Shown here one piece after another: positions 9,713-55,516 of a DNA stretch of 64,000 bases. The DNA comes from Lactobacillus sp. CBA3606 (GTDB taxonomy: Bacteria > Bacillota > Bacilli > Lactobacillales > Lactobacillaceae). The DNA lies in NCBI RefSeq assembly GCF_002970935.1, contig NZ_CP027194.1, positions 806,001-870,000 on the forward strand, given 5' to 3'. The stretch's first letter is position 1, and each line of letters opens with the position of its first letter. The notes below the pieces were generated by a model, which made no database searches, was not told where the DNA came from, and was given only the letters and a program-made list of their open reading frames with translations. The translations under genes were made by a program, and so were the position numbers.

Positions 9713-12700
9713 TTAATGTCGTTTCAAGAAATAATAACCAAACCCACCAATCAATCCTAGACTAACCACTGCAGCCATCGCAATCACTGCGGCACGGGTT
9801 GTCGCCGAGTTCGTCTTAGTCGCTACCTTAGCCTTAGTTGGCGCAATCGCAGCGGCTTTAGTCTTAGGTGTCGTGGTTGACTTAGCTCGCGCCACGGTCC
9901 CGGCTGACTTCGTCGCTTTAGCTTTGGTTGCTTCGGTCGTTTTAACCGCGGCGGTAGCCTGAGCTTGCGCCGTTGCTAGGGTCACTTGTGGGGCTTTAGC
10001 TACCGTTGTTGGAGTCGCAGTAATAGTGCCCACTGGCTGTGATGCAGCGGCCGTAACTGCCGTTGAGGTCGCAGTAGTTGCCCTGACCGGTGTTGTAACT
10101 GCCTTAGTCGCTGCCATCGGTATCACGGTTGCTTGGTACCGACGTTGACCAGTCTTAGTTGCAGTTCGAACAGTGTCGGTCGACTTAGTCTCCTGACTAA
10201 CTGTACTTTCGCTCCCAGTAACCGGCGTCTGTGAATCAGATTCACTAGGTTGCTTAGCCGGCGCCGTAATCACTGGTTTAGCTGGCTTTGAGGCCGCTAC
10301 CACCGTGATGATTGCCGTGCTAGTCTGCGTTTGACTATGACTATCCGTATAACGATACGTCACGTGATAACGTCCGGGTTGCGTGGTGTTTACATTGCCC
10401 GTTACCGTCACATCGGCCAGCGTAATGGCTTGACCATTGGCATCAACCCCACCGTTAAAGTTCGCTGCTTGCTGCCACGTGTCATTAACCGCTAATGTAC
10501 TATTATTAACGGTAAATGACCGTGCTGGCGCTAATACGGTAACATAAGTTGCTTGTGTGATCACATTGCCTTGGCGATCCGTATACGAATAGGTCACCTT
10601 GGTCGTTCCCGGTTGGCGCGTGTTAATTTGCTTATCCACTGTGACCGCTGAATAATTTAGTGCCTGTCCAGTAATCGTGGTGCCGGCAAAATCAGTTTGT
10701 GGTGACCAACTAGCACCATTTTCAACCGTCACCGTCGCTGGCACCGTGAGGCTGGCTTTAGAAGCCACAACCGTCACGGTCGCCGTTTCAGTCTGTGTCT
10801 GCTGATGCCGATCCGTATAGGTATAGGTCACCTGATAAGTACCAGGCTGGTTCGTTTTAACTTGATCCGCCCCGGTTACCGTCACATTAGCCAACGTGAT
10901 AGCTTGCCCATCGGCAGCTACCCCGGCCGTGGCAAAGTTAGCCGCTGGCAACCAGGTTGTCTTTGGACCAGCGATGAGCGTCTGATTCTTAACGGTAAAT
11001 CCCTTAGCTGGCGCTAACACCGTAACTTTAGTGGTACCGGTCTTAACGTTCCCTTGACTATCGGTGTACGTATAAGTCACCGAATAAGTCCCGGCTTGCG
11101 TGGTTTTAACTGGATTATCCACTGAAACTGCCGCATAATCCAACTGATTACCAACCGCATCGGTCCCAGTAAAGGCCGTTGCTGGTGTCCAATCAGCGCC
11201 ATTTTCAATCGTCGTGGTCGTTGGCACCGTCACACTGGCCTGAGAAGCCACGACCGTAATCGTCGCCGTTGCTGTCTGGGTCTGTTGGTGACTATCCGTA
11301 TAGGTATACGTCACTTGATACGTCCCTGGTTTGGTCGAATCGACTGCGCCAGCTACTTGCACGTTTGCCAACGTAATCGCCGTGCCATTCGCATCTAAAC
11401 CAGCGGCGCCAAAACTATCCGCTTGTGACCATGTAGCTTTAGGGCCAGCAATTACCGTAGTATCTTTCACAGTGAACCCTTGGGCCGGCGCTAAGACGGT
11501 CACTTTGGTAATACCAGTCTTAACGTTACCTTGACTATCCGTGTATGAATACGTAACTGTATAGGTCCCGGCTTGCGTGGTTTTGACTGGATTATCGACC
11601 GTCACGGCCGCATAAGCCAATGCCTTACCAGTAACATCCGTCCCGGCAAAATCGGTTGCTGGAGACCAATCTGTGCCATTTTCAATGGTAGTCGTGGTTG
11701 GCACCGTTACACCGGCCTGAGAAGCAACGACCGTAATTGTCACCGTTTCAGTCTGGATCTGCTGGTGACTATCGGTATAGGTGTAGGTCACTTGATAAGT
11801 GCCTGGCTTGGTTGAATCCACTTGACCAGTCACTCGAACGTTTGCCAACGTGATGGCTGTCCCATTGGCATCTAAGCCAGCACTATCAAAGTTATCGGCT
11901 TGGGCCCAAGTGGTTTTAGGACCCGCAATTAACGTACTATCTTTGACCGTAAAGGCTTTTGCCGGTGCTAAGACGGTAACCTGTGTCGTGACTGGCGCTA
12001 TAACGTTGCCTTGACTATCTGTGTATGAATAAGTCACCGTATAAGTCCCGGCTTGCGTCATATTAACTGGATTATCCACCGAAACTGCTGCATAATCCAA
12101 CTGATGACCTGCCGCATCGTTCCCAGTAAAGTCCGTTGCGGGTGTCCAATCAGCGCCATTTTCAACCGTAGTAGTCGTGGGCACCTTCAAACCAGCTTTA
12201 GAAACGGCCACTGTAATCGTCACCGTGTCAGTCTGCGTTTTTTTGTGACTATCCGTATAGGTATAAGTCACTTGATAAGTGCCCGCTTTAGTTGGATCAA
12301 CGGTGCCACTCACTTGCACGTTTGCCAACGTAATCGCAGTCCCATTGGCATCTAAGCCAGCACTAGCAAAATTATTGGCTTGCGACCAAGTGGTTTTAGG
12401 ACCCGCAATTAACGTACTATCGTTGACCGTAAAGGGTTTTGCCGGTGCTAAGACGGTAACCTGGGTCGTGACTGGCGCTATAACATTACCTTGACTATCC
12501 GTGTATGAATAAGTCACCGTATAAGTCCCAGCCTGCGTCATATTAACTGGATTATCGACCGTCACGGCCGCATAATCCAACTTTTTGCCAGCCGCATCGT
12601 GCCCGTCAAAGTTCGTCGCTGGTGTCCAATCAGCGCCATTTTCAACCGTAGTAGCGGTTGGCACCTTCACACTGGCTTGAGAAGCCACTAAGGTTACTAT

Positions 12701-39888: not shown

Positions 39889-39936
39889 CAAAACAGTCGC
39901 TGCAAGAAGATAACTTCTTGCAGCGACTGTTTTTTG
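39889..39936. terminator. Bidirectional terminator between aspartate kinase and the transporter
   Basis: Perfect 18-base arms (39892-39909 and 39914-39931) are followed by T on the plus strand and by TTTT on the minus strand. It serves both convergent units. Confidence 0.93.
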
Positions 39937-39975: not shown

Positions 39976-40810
39976 CTAGTTAGTCGTACCAAACCATTTT
40001 TCATTAATTTTAGCTAAGGTCCCATTCGCTTTCAAGGTCTTTAAGCCAGCGTTGATTTTGCTTTTCATCGTCCGATCCCCTTTACGGAGACCGACAGCAA
40101 AGTCTTCGGACTTGAAGTTACCTTGGGTCTCTTGGTAATTCGCTGAATTGGCTTCGTGCTTAATATAATAATTGGCATACACATTATCAATCAGTAACCC
40201 TTGAATCCGACCAGCATTTAAATCTAAAAAGGCATTATTAAACGTATCATATTGTACCGGTGTCTTTTTAGCGATTTTGTCTTTTAACAGCTTCGGATTA
40301 TTTTCGAGTGATTCATAACCCGATGACCCCGACTGAACGCCTAAAGTCTTCCCCGTCATATCATTAAAGGAACTGATTTTATTTTTCTTCAATGAAACTA
40401 AAATCTGCTTATTCTTTAAATAAGTGTTGCTAAAAGCAACCACTTTTTCACGTTGGGGATTTTTCGTGTAGCCATTCCAGATCAAATCAATCGTGCCGTT
40501 GCGCAGTTCCGTCGCATTCATCGACCAATCAATCGTTTGGAAGTTCACTTTAATCCCATATAATTTGAAGACTGCCCGCTGCCCGGGCTAAATCAACGTC
40601 ATAGCCGACTAACTTCCCGGACTTTTCACGAAACCCCATTGGCACAAAGCTGTCATCTAAACCAACAATGACATAGCCTCGTTTTTTTACTTTCGCCCAG
40701 GTATCTTGGGTGTTAGCGCGTTGGGTCACATTTTCGCAACCTGATAAGGTCCCGACGACCCCCACCAACATGACCACTAGTAAGCACATTGAAATTATTC
40801 TTTTTTTCAT
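39976..40810 (-). pseudogene. Amino-acid ABC transporter substrate-binding lipoprotein, frameshifted
   Basis: The first part (40810 to about 40585) encodes a lipoprotein signal with lipobox LSGC and the start of a type 3 binding protein (GYVIVGLDDSFVPMGFR, GYDVDLARA). It then runs out of frame into a TAA at 40550-40552. The remainder is in another frame (NFQTIDWSMNATELRNGTIDLIWNGYT to the end). A 7-bp tandem duplication at 40572-40585 is the cause: removing one copy restores DLARAVFKLYGIKVNFQTIDW and a single protein of 275 residues, normal for the family. As it stands the importer lacks an intact binding protein. A GTG just after the stop could restart the second part without a signal peptide. 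Confidence 0.92.
40572..40585 (-). repeat. 7-bp tandem duplication that breaks the binding-protein gene
   Basis: CGGGCAG occurs twice in a row on the minus strand. One copy fits the conserved protein; the second adds seven bases and shifts the frame. Confidence 0.95.
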
Positions 40811-40821
40811 TCCAAGGCCCC

Positions 40822-41463
40822 CTATTTGGTCGTATTTGGTTCAACGTGTAATACATCATCCGCAATATTTTGCGCAAAGGTCAAATCATGAGTGACAACA
40901 ATTTGCGTCATCCCATCGGCTTTTAAGCCTAAAATTAATTTTTCAACCGCTTGGCGCAAGTTAGGATCTAAAGCCGACGTCGGTTCATCGTAACAAAGAA
41001 TATTTGGTTTCATCGCCAAGGCCCGGGCAATAGCAACCCGCTGTTGTTGCCCACCAGAGAGTTGGTAAGGATATTGATCAGCGTGATCGCCTAAGTCCAA
41101 ACGTGCTAATAATTTTTTGGCCTGCTGATTAGCAGCCGCCGTATTCTCTTTTAAGACCATCGTTGGTGCCAACGCAATATTTTGTAGCACAGTCAAATGT
41201 GGAAATAATTCAAAGTTTTGAAAGACAACCCCAATCACACTCTCGTTACTCCGATTCGTGTAAGGATCAAAGGCTTGACCATCCACTAAGAACTGGCCGC
41301 TATCGACTTGTTCCAACCCGGTAATACACCGTAACAAGGTCGTTTTACCGGCTCCTGAAGGCCCGACAATACTTAAAATTTCACCATCTTTAACGGTTAA
41401 ATCCAATTGCTTGATAATGGTCCGATTTCCAAAGCTTTTTGTAATCTGTTTAAGTTCTAACAT
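40822..41463 (-). CDS. Polar amino acid ABC transporter, ATP-binding protein
   Basis: This 213-residue ATPase has Walker A GPSGAGKTT (34-42), Q-loop VFQNFELFPHLTVLQN, signature LSGGQQQRVAIARALA and Walker B ILCYDEPTSALDP. It is the GlnQ type and is somewhat shorter than the usual 240 residues, ending soon after the H-loop (VVTHDLTFAQ). It lies between permease and binding protein in the T-box-controlled operon, so histidine import is the best guess. Confidence 0.95.
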   Translation of the reverse strand: MLELKQITKSFGNRTIIKQLDLTVKDGEILSIVGPSGAGKTTLLRCITGLEQVDSGQFLVDGQAFDPYTNRSNESVIGVVFQNFELFPHLTVLQNIALAPTMVLKENTAAANQQAKKLLARLDLGDHADQYPYQLSGGQQQRVAIARALAMKPNILCYDEPTSALDPNLRQAVEKLILGLKADGMTQIVVTHDLTFAQNIADDVLHVEPNTTK

Positions 41464-41475
41464 GGCAAGGCCTCC

Positions 41476-42117
41476 TTATTTCCAGTAACTGTAACGTTTC
41501 TCAACTTGACGTAACACGAAGGTCGTTACCCCGGTTAGTAACAAGTAAATGACTCCGACTAAGACTAATGGTACTAAGGTGACATCTCTAGCTGTAGCAA
41601 CATTGCCGGCTCGTAATAAGTCGCCTAAACCAATGACATAGACTAACGATGAATCCTTGACCAAATTAATCACTTCATTACCCACGGATGGTAATACAAT
41701 CTTAACCACTTGGGGAATGATAATCTTACGAATCGTTTGCGGATAACTCAACCGTAAGACCCGTGCACTTTCATACTGCCCATTATCGATTGATTGTAAC
41801 CCACCACGGAAGATTTCGGCGAAGTACGCCGCGTAATTCAAGATAAAGGCGAACAAGGCCGCATCATATCGTTGGAAGACCACGCCAATTAAAGGTAGGC
41901 CATAAAATACGAAAATCAATTGGAGCAACAATGGCGTGCCACGCATCAGCCAAACATAAAAGGTCAACACCCATTGTAGTGGCTTAATATTTGAAATTAA
42001 GCCTAAACTGATCAATAACCCCAATGGAATCGATCCAATTAACGTCCAAATAAAGATCTGTAGCGTCATGCCGGCGCCGGATAATAATGATGGCAAAATT
42101 TCTGAAATATAATGCAT
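41476..42117 (-). CDS. Polar amino acid ABC transporter, permease
   Basis: This 213-residue HisM/GlnP-type permease begins MHYISEILPSLLSGAGMTLQ and has about five membrane helices. The cytoplasmic EAA loop ESARVLRLSYPQTIRKIIIPQ contacts the ATPase. I chose the ATG at 42117, eight bases after GGGAGGG, over an upstream in-frame start inside the leader. It is first in the importer operon. Confidence 0.95.
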   Translation of the reverse strand: MHYISEILPSLLSGAGMTLQIFIWTLIGSIPLGLLISLGLISNIKPLQWVLTFYVWLMRGTPLLLQLIFVFYGLPLIGVVFQRYDAALFAFILNYAAYFAEIFRGGLQSIDNGQYESARVLRLSYPQTIRKIIIPQVVKIVLPSVGNEVINLVKDSSLVYVIGLGDLLRAGNVATARDVTLVPLVLVGVIYLLLTGVTTFVLRQVEKRYSYWK

Positions 42118-42151
42118 AAGCTTAACCCTCCCAAATTTAATTAACAGTAAC

Positions 42152-42186
42152 AAAAAAGTCCCCTTGAGAAAAAATCTCAAGAGGAC
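42152..42186 (-). terminator. T-box terminator 2
   Basis: Twelve-base arms (42158-42169 and 42175-42186) are followed on the minus strand by six T, just before the permease gene. Confidence 0.88.
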
Positions 42187-42251
42187 GTCTATGCGCGGTG
42201 CCACCTCACTTCGCAGTAACTTCACAGTCACTGCCTCAGGGAGTTCAGTGA

Positions 42252-53796: not shown

Positions 53797-53988
53797 CTTC
53801 GCCACCTCCGTCTCTTACTCAGTTGGAATAATGGCATTAGTTTATCATTTTTCAGACATAACTTTAGTAATATTGTATCGATTAACCAGACTTGGTTCAG
53901 CGAACTAAAAAACAGCTTGGTTAACAAGCAATATCGTAATAGACCCCAGTTAGTCCCACTGATTCGTGCTTTGAAAACTAAATTTTGC

Positions 53989-54023
53989 TAAAAAAACGAG
54001 CTCGGGATAATCCCAAGCTCGTT
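53989..54023 (-). terminator. Rho-independent terminator downstream of thiI and the repeat region
   Basis: Thirteen-base arms (53995-54007 and 54011-54023) are followed on the minus strand by seven T. The thiI transcript would pass through 275 bases of repeats to end here. Confidence 0.88.
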
Positions 54024-54072
54024 GCTTAACCATTTAAATTTGTGTGGTCACTATGTTCAGAAACAATCTACA

Positions 54073-54152
54073 TTGCCGAAACGTGCTCACCACCACTGCC
54101 CCCTAGGCTTAGGGACGTCACGAGCACCATGCTTAGAACCGCATGATACTCG
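54073..54152. repeat. 80-bp direct repeat, copy 1 (truncated palindrome)
   Basis: It is the same length as copy 2 with about 7 differences, all in a 20-base block. It keeps the GTGCTCACCACCAC arm and the inner loop, but the second outer arm is missing and replaced by AACCCGGATGGTG and a T-run. Confidence 0.9.
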
Positions 54153-54170
54153 AACCCGGATGGTGTTTTT

Positions 54171-54250
54171 TTGCCGAAACGTGCTCACCACCACTGCCTC
54201 CTGGGCATAGCCTAGTCACGAGCACCATGCTTAGAACCGCATGATACTCG
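54171..54250. repeat. 80-bp direct repeat, copy 2
   Basis: It starts TTGCCGAAACGTGCTCACC like copy 1 and ends GCATGATACTCG. It forms the left part of the long hairpin at 54181-54291. Confidence 0.92.
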
Positions 54251-54291
54251 TGACTAGGCTATGCTCGGAAGCAACCCGTGGTGGTGAGCAC
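54181..54291. repeat. 111-bp palindrome after thiI
   Basis: Outer perfect arms of 14 bases (54181-54194 and 54278-54291) and inner perfect arms of 18 bases (54205-54222 and 54247-54264) nest around a loop that itself contains CATGC/GCATG. It begins 8 bases after the thiI stop. No gene is visible in 53797-54298. Confidence 0.92.
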
Positions 54292-54298
54292 TCTTGTC

Positions 54299-55516
54299 TT
54301 ACAACAATTCCGCAAAAACATCTTCCTGGGCATTCATATAATTCTCGCCCGGTTTGATTTCGCTAATCTTAATCCCGTCCATTGCCCGTTGCATTAGACC
54401 TGCCACGTCAATTCGTTCTTCATATGAACGTGACCGGTCGAGCTTAGGATGGGTCTTCGGTGCTGGCGGTGCAAAAATCGTACAGCAGTCTTCAAATGGC
54501 ATGATTGATAAATTATACGTATCAATCTTTTCTGCCACTTTAATGATTTCAGTCTTGTCCATTGAAATCACTGGCCGCAATACAGGAAGTGCCGTCACAT
54601 CATTGATTGCAATCATACTGTCCATCGTCTGTGAAGCCACTTGACCTAAAGATTCACCATTAAAAATGGCCTTACCATGGCGTTCCCGTGTAATGGCATC
54701 CATTAGACGCATCATTAACCGTCGTTGGACCGTCATTAAATAACCTTCAGGGACTTTTTCTTTGATTTCTTCTTGAATTTCCGTAAATGGAATCTGGATA
54801 AACTTCACACTACCAGAATAACTCGCTAACGTTGAAGCCAATTGCTTGGCTTTAGCTAACGCTTGTTCACTCGTATATGGCGGACTGAAGAAATGCACCA
54901 TCTCCATATCAACCCCACGCTTCATGCCCAAGTACCCGGCAACTGGTGAATCAATCCCACCAGAAAGCATCAGCATCCCTTTACCAGCAGTGCCAACGGG
55001 TAAGCCCCCGGCACCATTAATGGTCTCAGAAGATAGGAAAATGCCGTTCATGCGAACTTCTACGCGAATGACAATATCAGGATGTTGCATCTTCACTTGA
55101 ATACCAGCAACGTGATCTAAAATCTGACCACCTAACATGTCATTGATTTCGTTCGTGTCGTATTCAAAATGATGATCAGAACGACGGGTATTAACTTTAA
55201 ACGTCATCCCAGGCTTAAATTGCGCTTGCACCATGGCAATCGCCGTTGCATAAACCTCGTCCATATCTTGAGCGACCCGAATACTTGGTGAAAAGTTTTG
55301 AATCCCAAAAACCAATTGTAACCGGTCCATGACACCTTGCGCATCTTCATCATGTAATGAAATGTGCATCCGGTCACGGTCAGCATGTACTTTTAACGTC
55401 GGAAAGTCGTGGAGCGCTTTGCGGACGTTACGGCCTAAGCTATCAATAAAGTTGCGGCGATTCTTGCCCTTAGTTGATAGTTCACCATAACGCACCATAA
55501 TTTCAGTATATTGCAT
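54299..55516 (-). CDS. thiI: tRNA 4-thiouridine synthase ThiI
   Basis: The 405-residue protein has an N-terminal ferredoxin-like and THUMP region, and an ATP PP-loop [21 protein letters not shown] (about 180). It lacks the rhodanese domain seen in E. coli, as in Bacillus. It adds sulfur to U8 of tRNA. It follows a cysteine desulfurase by 17 bases, which supplies the sulfur. Confidence 0.97.

Follow-up and report, generated by a model that had tools for sequence, protein, structure and literature searches.

The solute-binding-protein gene of an amino-acid importer in Lactobacillus sp. CBA3606 contains an exact 7-bp tandem duplication, which shifts the reading frame and leaves the gene in two open reading frames (ORFs). 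From the sequence, we predict that this is an ordinary and very recent loss-of-function mutation, possibly acquired in culture. We assign this reading a probability of about 0.8; the mutation is known from one assembly.

Structure of the interrupted gene

The window analyzed here is a stretch of 64,000 nucleotides, and the duplication lies at positions 40572..40585 within it. There the coding (minus) strand reads CGGGCAGCGGGCAG, that is, two adjoining copies of CGGGCAG, forming a 14-mer found once in the window. The minus-strand ORF that contains the 5' part of the gene (40550..40810, 86 aa) terminates in ...DLARAAGSLQIIWD, with its final residues out of frame. The remaining gene is open in another frame, the original one, from 40548 to 39976 on the minus strand (39976..40548, 190 aa), and opens with a GTG one base past the stop. 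These observations bore out the proposal of the first-pass annotation that a 7-bp duplication breaks the importer's binding-protein gene. The shift falls at approximately 28% of the gene length.

The 86-aa ORF, which holds the signal and the start of the binding domain, matched positions 1-32 of the Pfam profile PF00497 (E 2.8e-6), and the 190-aa ORF matched positions 41-132 of the 132 in the profile (E 4.1e-24). Because these matches are complementary, the two ORFs were read as parts of a single gene whose frame changes between them. Their joint coverage of the profile and the permease and ATPase genes alongside are both as expected of a family-3 solute-binding protein. The motif LSGC in the 86-aa ORF is presumably the lipobox of a lipoprotein-type signal. 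Microhomology at the borders of the repeat was considered and rejected, as the flanking bases on the plus strand (A before, G after) do not extend the unit.

Importer genes and their neighborhood

On the minus strand of the window, the genes are ordered minC, minD, permease, ATPase and family-3 solute-binding protein, after which comes a convergent aspartokinase-like gene on the plus strand; the names minC, minD and aspartokinase are our assignments from the translations. The ATPase gene (40822..41463, minus strand) is uninterrupted, and the models nearest to it are of the GlnQ type, below their cut-off. The permease gene (41476..42231, minus strand), identified by a match to the HEQRo_perm_3TM domain, is also uninterrupted. 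Since the tblastn matches of the permease begin only at residue 19-39 in 21 of the 23 named related loci, its true start may lie downstream of the annotated GTG. Between the convergent aspartokinase-like and binding-protein genes, a 20-bp perfect inverted repeat with an ATAA loop was read by eye at 39890..39933. It is probably a two-way terminator, and it was absent from the six terminator-like sites returned by a pattern scan.

Regarding the ligand, all listed NCBIfam matches of both halves scored below their curated cut-offs, as fragments would. The best-scoring solved relatives of both halves were the SBP_bac_3 proteins 3hv1 and 4ohn of the Protein Data Bank (E 2.6e-58 and 5.7e-56, respectively, for the 190-aa part), which are intact proteins, whereas the binding protein described here is broken into two ORFs. 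The genome carries five uninterrupted PF00497 genes in addition to the broken one, which was counted as two matches, and the sister genome carries seven, including the orthologue of the broken gene. Across 21 genomes of the genus, the number of SBP_bac_3 matches per genome ranged from five to eight.

The intact gene in related genomes

The sister genome (G019) is 90% identical over the binding-protein gene and has the heptamer once, within an otherwise near-identical stretch. It was predicted in the first-pass annotation that a single copy would restore reading, and the sister gene indeed reads through as DLARAVFKLYGIKVNFQTIDW. The sister orthologue (G019:C1:576266-576943) covers PF00497 positions 1-131, and all 190 residues of the 190-aa part are identical in it (190/190); in the nearest named genomes, from which the genus was inferred to be Lactiplantibacillus, copies of this part are up to 93% identical.

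A wider comparison of the locus across relatives included 43 related loci from two partly overlapping sets. A scan of public genomes supplied 23 named loci, 15 of them taken as belonging to the same genus (one labelled uncultured Lactobacillus) and eight from Levilactobacillus, Liquorilactobacillus, Ligilactobacillus and Limosilactobacillus. A search of 21 genomes of the genus, with one match each, supplied 20 loci besides our own, the sister included. In every one of the 43 loci, the binding-protein gene ran without interruption in a single frame, which spans 279-301 codons when measured from the stop before it. None of them was split, and an exact 7-bp tandem pair was found in none within the 75-base stretch around the site. 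A frame that is broken in one genome and uninterrupted in all relatives compared is the pattern of a recent pseudogene. It follows that the ancestral state is an uninterrupted gene with a single copy, and that the duplication is peculiar to the present genome. All 23 named loci, like the sister, also have the permease, ATPase and binding-protein genes in this order. The gene minD preceded the importer genes in 22 of the 23 and was not found in the remaining one (L023).

Chance level of short tandem pairs and comparison of indels

Five exact 7-bp pairs were counted in the window; 20 first-order Markov simulations gave 4.05 on average (range 0-9), and the idea that the tandem pair is statistically remarkable by itself was therefore rejected. 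In 600 kb of the genome there were 30 such pairs, 22 falling within sequence that aligns to the sister and eight outside it. The alignment was free of gaps at 21 of the 22 pairs. The pair at 40572-40585 is thus the only one that faces a gap in the sister, which argues that the duplication is real as an event.

The own-sister comparison covered 451 kb of these 600 kb, with five pieces lying more than 8 kb off the diagonal (approximately 73 kb) left out. Within the alignment pieces it yielded 486 indels, including 125 of at least 4 bp. Exact tandem gains of at least 4 bp accounted for only two of the 486, rotation of the unit being allowed, and this count holds inside the pieces only, as indels between pieces, such as that of a 97/98-bp array at 54073-54250, were not counted. 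The other tandem gain is of 6 bp, in frame, and lies within a large repeat-rich ORF.

Age of the break

Over 274 codons, the binding-protein gene differs from that of the sister by two nonsynonymous and 72 synonymous changes (dN/dS 0.005), and no further frameshift or in-frame stop was present among the codons compared. The description of a single minimal break in a gene that is otherwise kept was thus accurate. Amongst 301 undisturbed genes, selected as having at least 150 codons compared and no non-triplet indel, the median dN/dS was 0.029 and the first quartile 0.0145; 26 of the 301 had values as low or lower. Seven other genes of this genome longer than 150 aa with a mid-frame break had dN/dS values of 0.03-0.12, making the binding-protein gene the least decayed.

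If the gene had been unconstrained along the whole of its own branch, approximately 150 nonsynonymous changes would be expected. The time for which it has been broken was bounded to approximately 4% of the branch, with values of 2-7% across the range of settings, assuming a synonymous-site share of 24.5% and counting both amino-acid differences as own, neither being polarised to a lineage. The same bound obtained by hand with the measured 647 nonsynonymous sites and a dS of 0.60 was approximately 3%. Because two nonsynonymous differences limit the unconstrained time to approximately 3-4% of the branch, the break is either very recent, and may then have been acquired in culture, or it is not real. 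Such little decay after the break is also what a recent pseudogene would show, and the youth of the break had been judged correctly at first pass.

Assessment of alternative explanations

A break that is not real would mean that the isolate carries one copy of the heptamer and an intact gene, and that the second copy is a sequencing or assembly error. We consider this unlikely, and less likely than a mutation. The coding sequence flanking the break is more conserved than most genes, as if the gene were intact, and across the 451 kb aligned (G000:C1:622700-1094100) this genome had ten mid-gene frameshift breaks vs one in the sister. These counts derive from 20 flagged ORFs (16 broken in this genome, four in the sister), after removal of nine (six and three, respectively) in which the indel lies within a tenth of either end and may reflect differences in start or end sites; two of the ten ORFs, of 126 and 111 aa, are possibly not genes. 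Other than that in the binding-protein gene, the mid-gene breaks are nearly all single-base, and their excess could reflect a larger number of pseudogenes or an assembly that is less polished, here one of four contigs that is 99.99% complete. They call for caution over errors of single bases. The assembly does not, on the other hand, make such duplications habitually, since none of the other placed 7-bp pairs faces a gap in the sister and the only other tandem gain is in frame, with no second out-of-frame one. To our knowledge, an exact 7-bp gain in a non-repetitive context is also not a typical base-calling error, which counts against this explanation.

The first-pass annotation had also raised the possibility that the break is reversible, with slippage between one and two copies alternately activating and silencing the importer among the cells of a population. 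A minority of cells would then keep or regain the single copy, giving a slow, newborn switch selected by alternation of poor and rich media. We found this on/off switch unsupported and consider it very improbable, so that of "recent or reversible" the first part stood, on the two nonsynonymous vs 72 synonymous differences, and the second did not. Preservation of the remaining gene as if under selection would be expected of a gene that is mostly on, although recency accounts for it equally well. An amino-acid importer is not, as far as we know, a typical contingency locus, and this too speaks against a switch. In favor of a switch, the nearest precedent found is the interconversion of a 6-bp repeat in Salmonella mutL, described together with repeat-number mutators in E. 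coli mutL (PMC2955026). The tract at 40572-40585 has two copies only, rather than the multiple copies of a hypermutable tract, and with 0 of 43 related loci carrying the pair there is no older repeat that could have given rise to a switch, no variation in copy number at the site among related genomes and no visible history of expansion or contraction between species. In the repeat classes given in PMC4235727, two to four tetramer copies are proto-mutable (1e-9 to 1e-7 per division), two pentamer copies are mutable (1e-7 to 1e-5), and phase variation is assigned to hypermutable tracts. A mutator background was rejected as a cause, as the matches to MutS (open frame of 878 aa) and MutL (661 aa) are uninterrupted and give no sign of one. 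One-off reversion by loss of a copy is possible at the low rate of any short direct repeat, which would not make the locus a switch. Among the papers listed by a search of the literature, there was no direct precedent for a 7-bp or similarly short bacterial tandem duplication acting as a switch. More improbable again is a functional split protein, in which translation would stop and restart so that both ORFs are translated. The stop TAA at 40552-40550 is indeed followed after one base by the GTG that opens the 190-aa ORF, but this GTG is an ordinary valine codon in the intact sister gene, and the 190-aa part begins within the mature domain and would have no export signal. A split gene as a trait of the family was rejected, as the locus is split in none of the 43 relatives. 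Finally, the two copies might have been left behind by a transposable element that duplicated 7 bp of its target on insertion and has since departed. The exact copies overlap the palindrome GCCCGGGC; there is, however, no extra base between or beside them relative to the sister, and local slippage takes fewer steps than insertion and departure of an element, leaving this origin scarcely credible.

Proposed origin and consequences of the mutation

Under our preferred reading of a recent loss-of-function mutation, a one-off 7-bp tandem duplication would have arisen in a single lineage, strain or culture of Lactiplantibacillus, through slippage during replication or some comparable local mistake in copying. 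The 86-aa product would contain no more than the initial quarter of the binding domain, so that the importer would presumably no longer capture its ligand; with the second ORF lacking an export signal, the importer would be left with no binding protein. Judging from the gene order, the two upstream genes should be free of polar effects, the binding-protein gene being the last of the group. The loss is probably tolerated, given the richness of culture media and the presence of further amino-acid importers, and overall amino-acid uptake would be unlikely to fail because five uninterrupted SBP_bac_3 genes remain.

As it stands, the mutation matters little, being another recent frameshift that removes the binding protein of one importer. 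It can be of use in annotation, where the two ORFs should be treated as one broken gene, and in predicting the amino-acid uptake of the strain. Only a demonstration of mixed copy number would give it greater importance, as this would be a phase-variable locus caught at birth.

Comparison with known systems

Bacterial frameshift pseudogenes that arise from short tandem duplications are a known kind. The present case resembles them in that a non-triplet direct repeat was gained in coding sequence in one genome only, with the relatives intact. Nothing substantial sets it apart from them, except that the gene has so far kept an unusually high degree of conservation, which points to a very young event.

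In Salmonella mutL, the working allele has three copies of a 6-bp repeat and a defective one has two (PMC2955026). The unit is likewise GC-rich and of similar length, and a change in copy number alters one gene. Three in-frame copies are common to Salmonella, Escherichia and Shigella, and one is lost or gained (PMC2955026); here, in contrast, only one copy is present in the relatives, and its doubling shifts the reading frame. Contingency loci, in which simple sequence repeats bring about translational phase variation (PMC4235727), share a non-triplet repeat within coding sequence, and differ from the present locus, which has two copies, no tract in 43 of 43 relatives and an importer rather than a surface antigen. 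Frameshift scars in Mycobacterium tuberculosis (PMC8339072) are similar in that a frameshifting indel silences a gene and may later be compensated. Unlike those scars, the break described here has no compensating indel and is known from one genome. Loosely comparable is a Xenorhabdus regulator gene with tandem duplications of 26-116 bp, for which PMC6786866 reports that the working sequence was never seen restored.

Other repeats in the window

The 97/98-bp tandem repeat mentioned above is intergenic (window 54073-54250) and has 1.8 copies here, and its counterpart in the sister (L070 340-806) has 4.8 copies with a 98% match. The copy number of this array therefore differs between the two species. 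It adjoins a gene at 54299-55516 that we take to be thiI-like. An Rfam search of 53800-54400 returned only microRNA matches far below their gathering scores, which were taken as chance hairpins. A large ORF of the window contains roughly four copies of a repeat of approximately 480 bp at window positions 10686-12688. It encodes 1891 aa here and 1999 aa in the sister, and its product is probably a surface protein.
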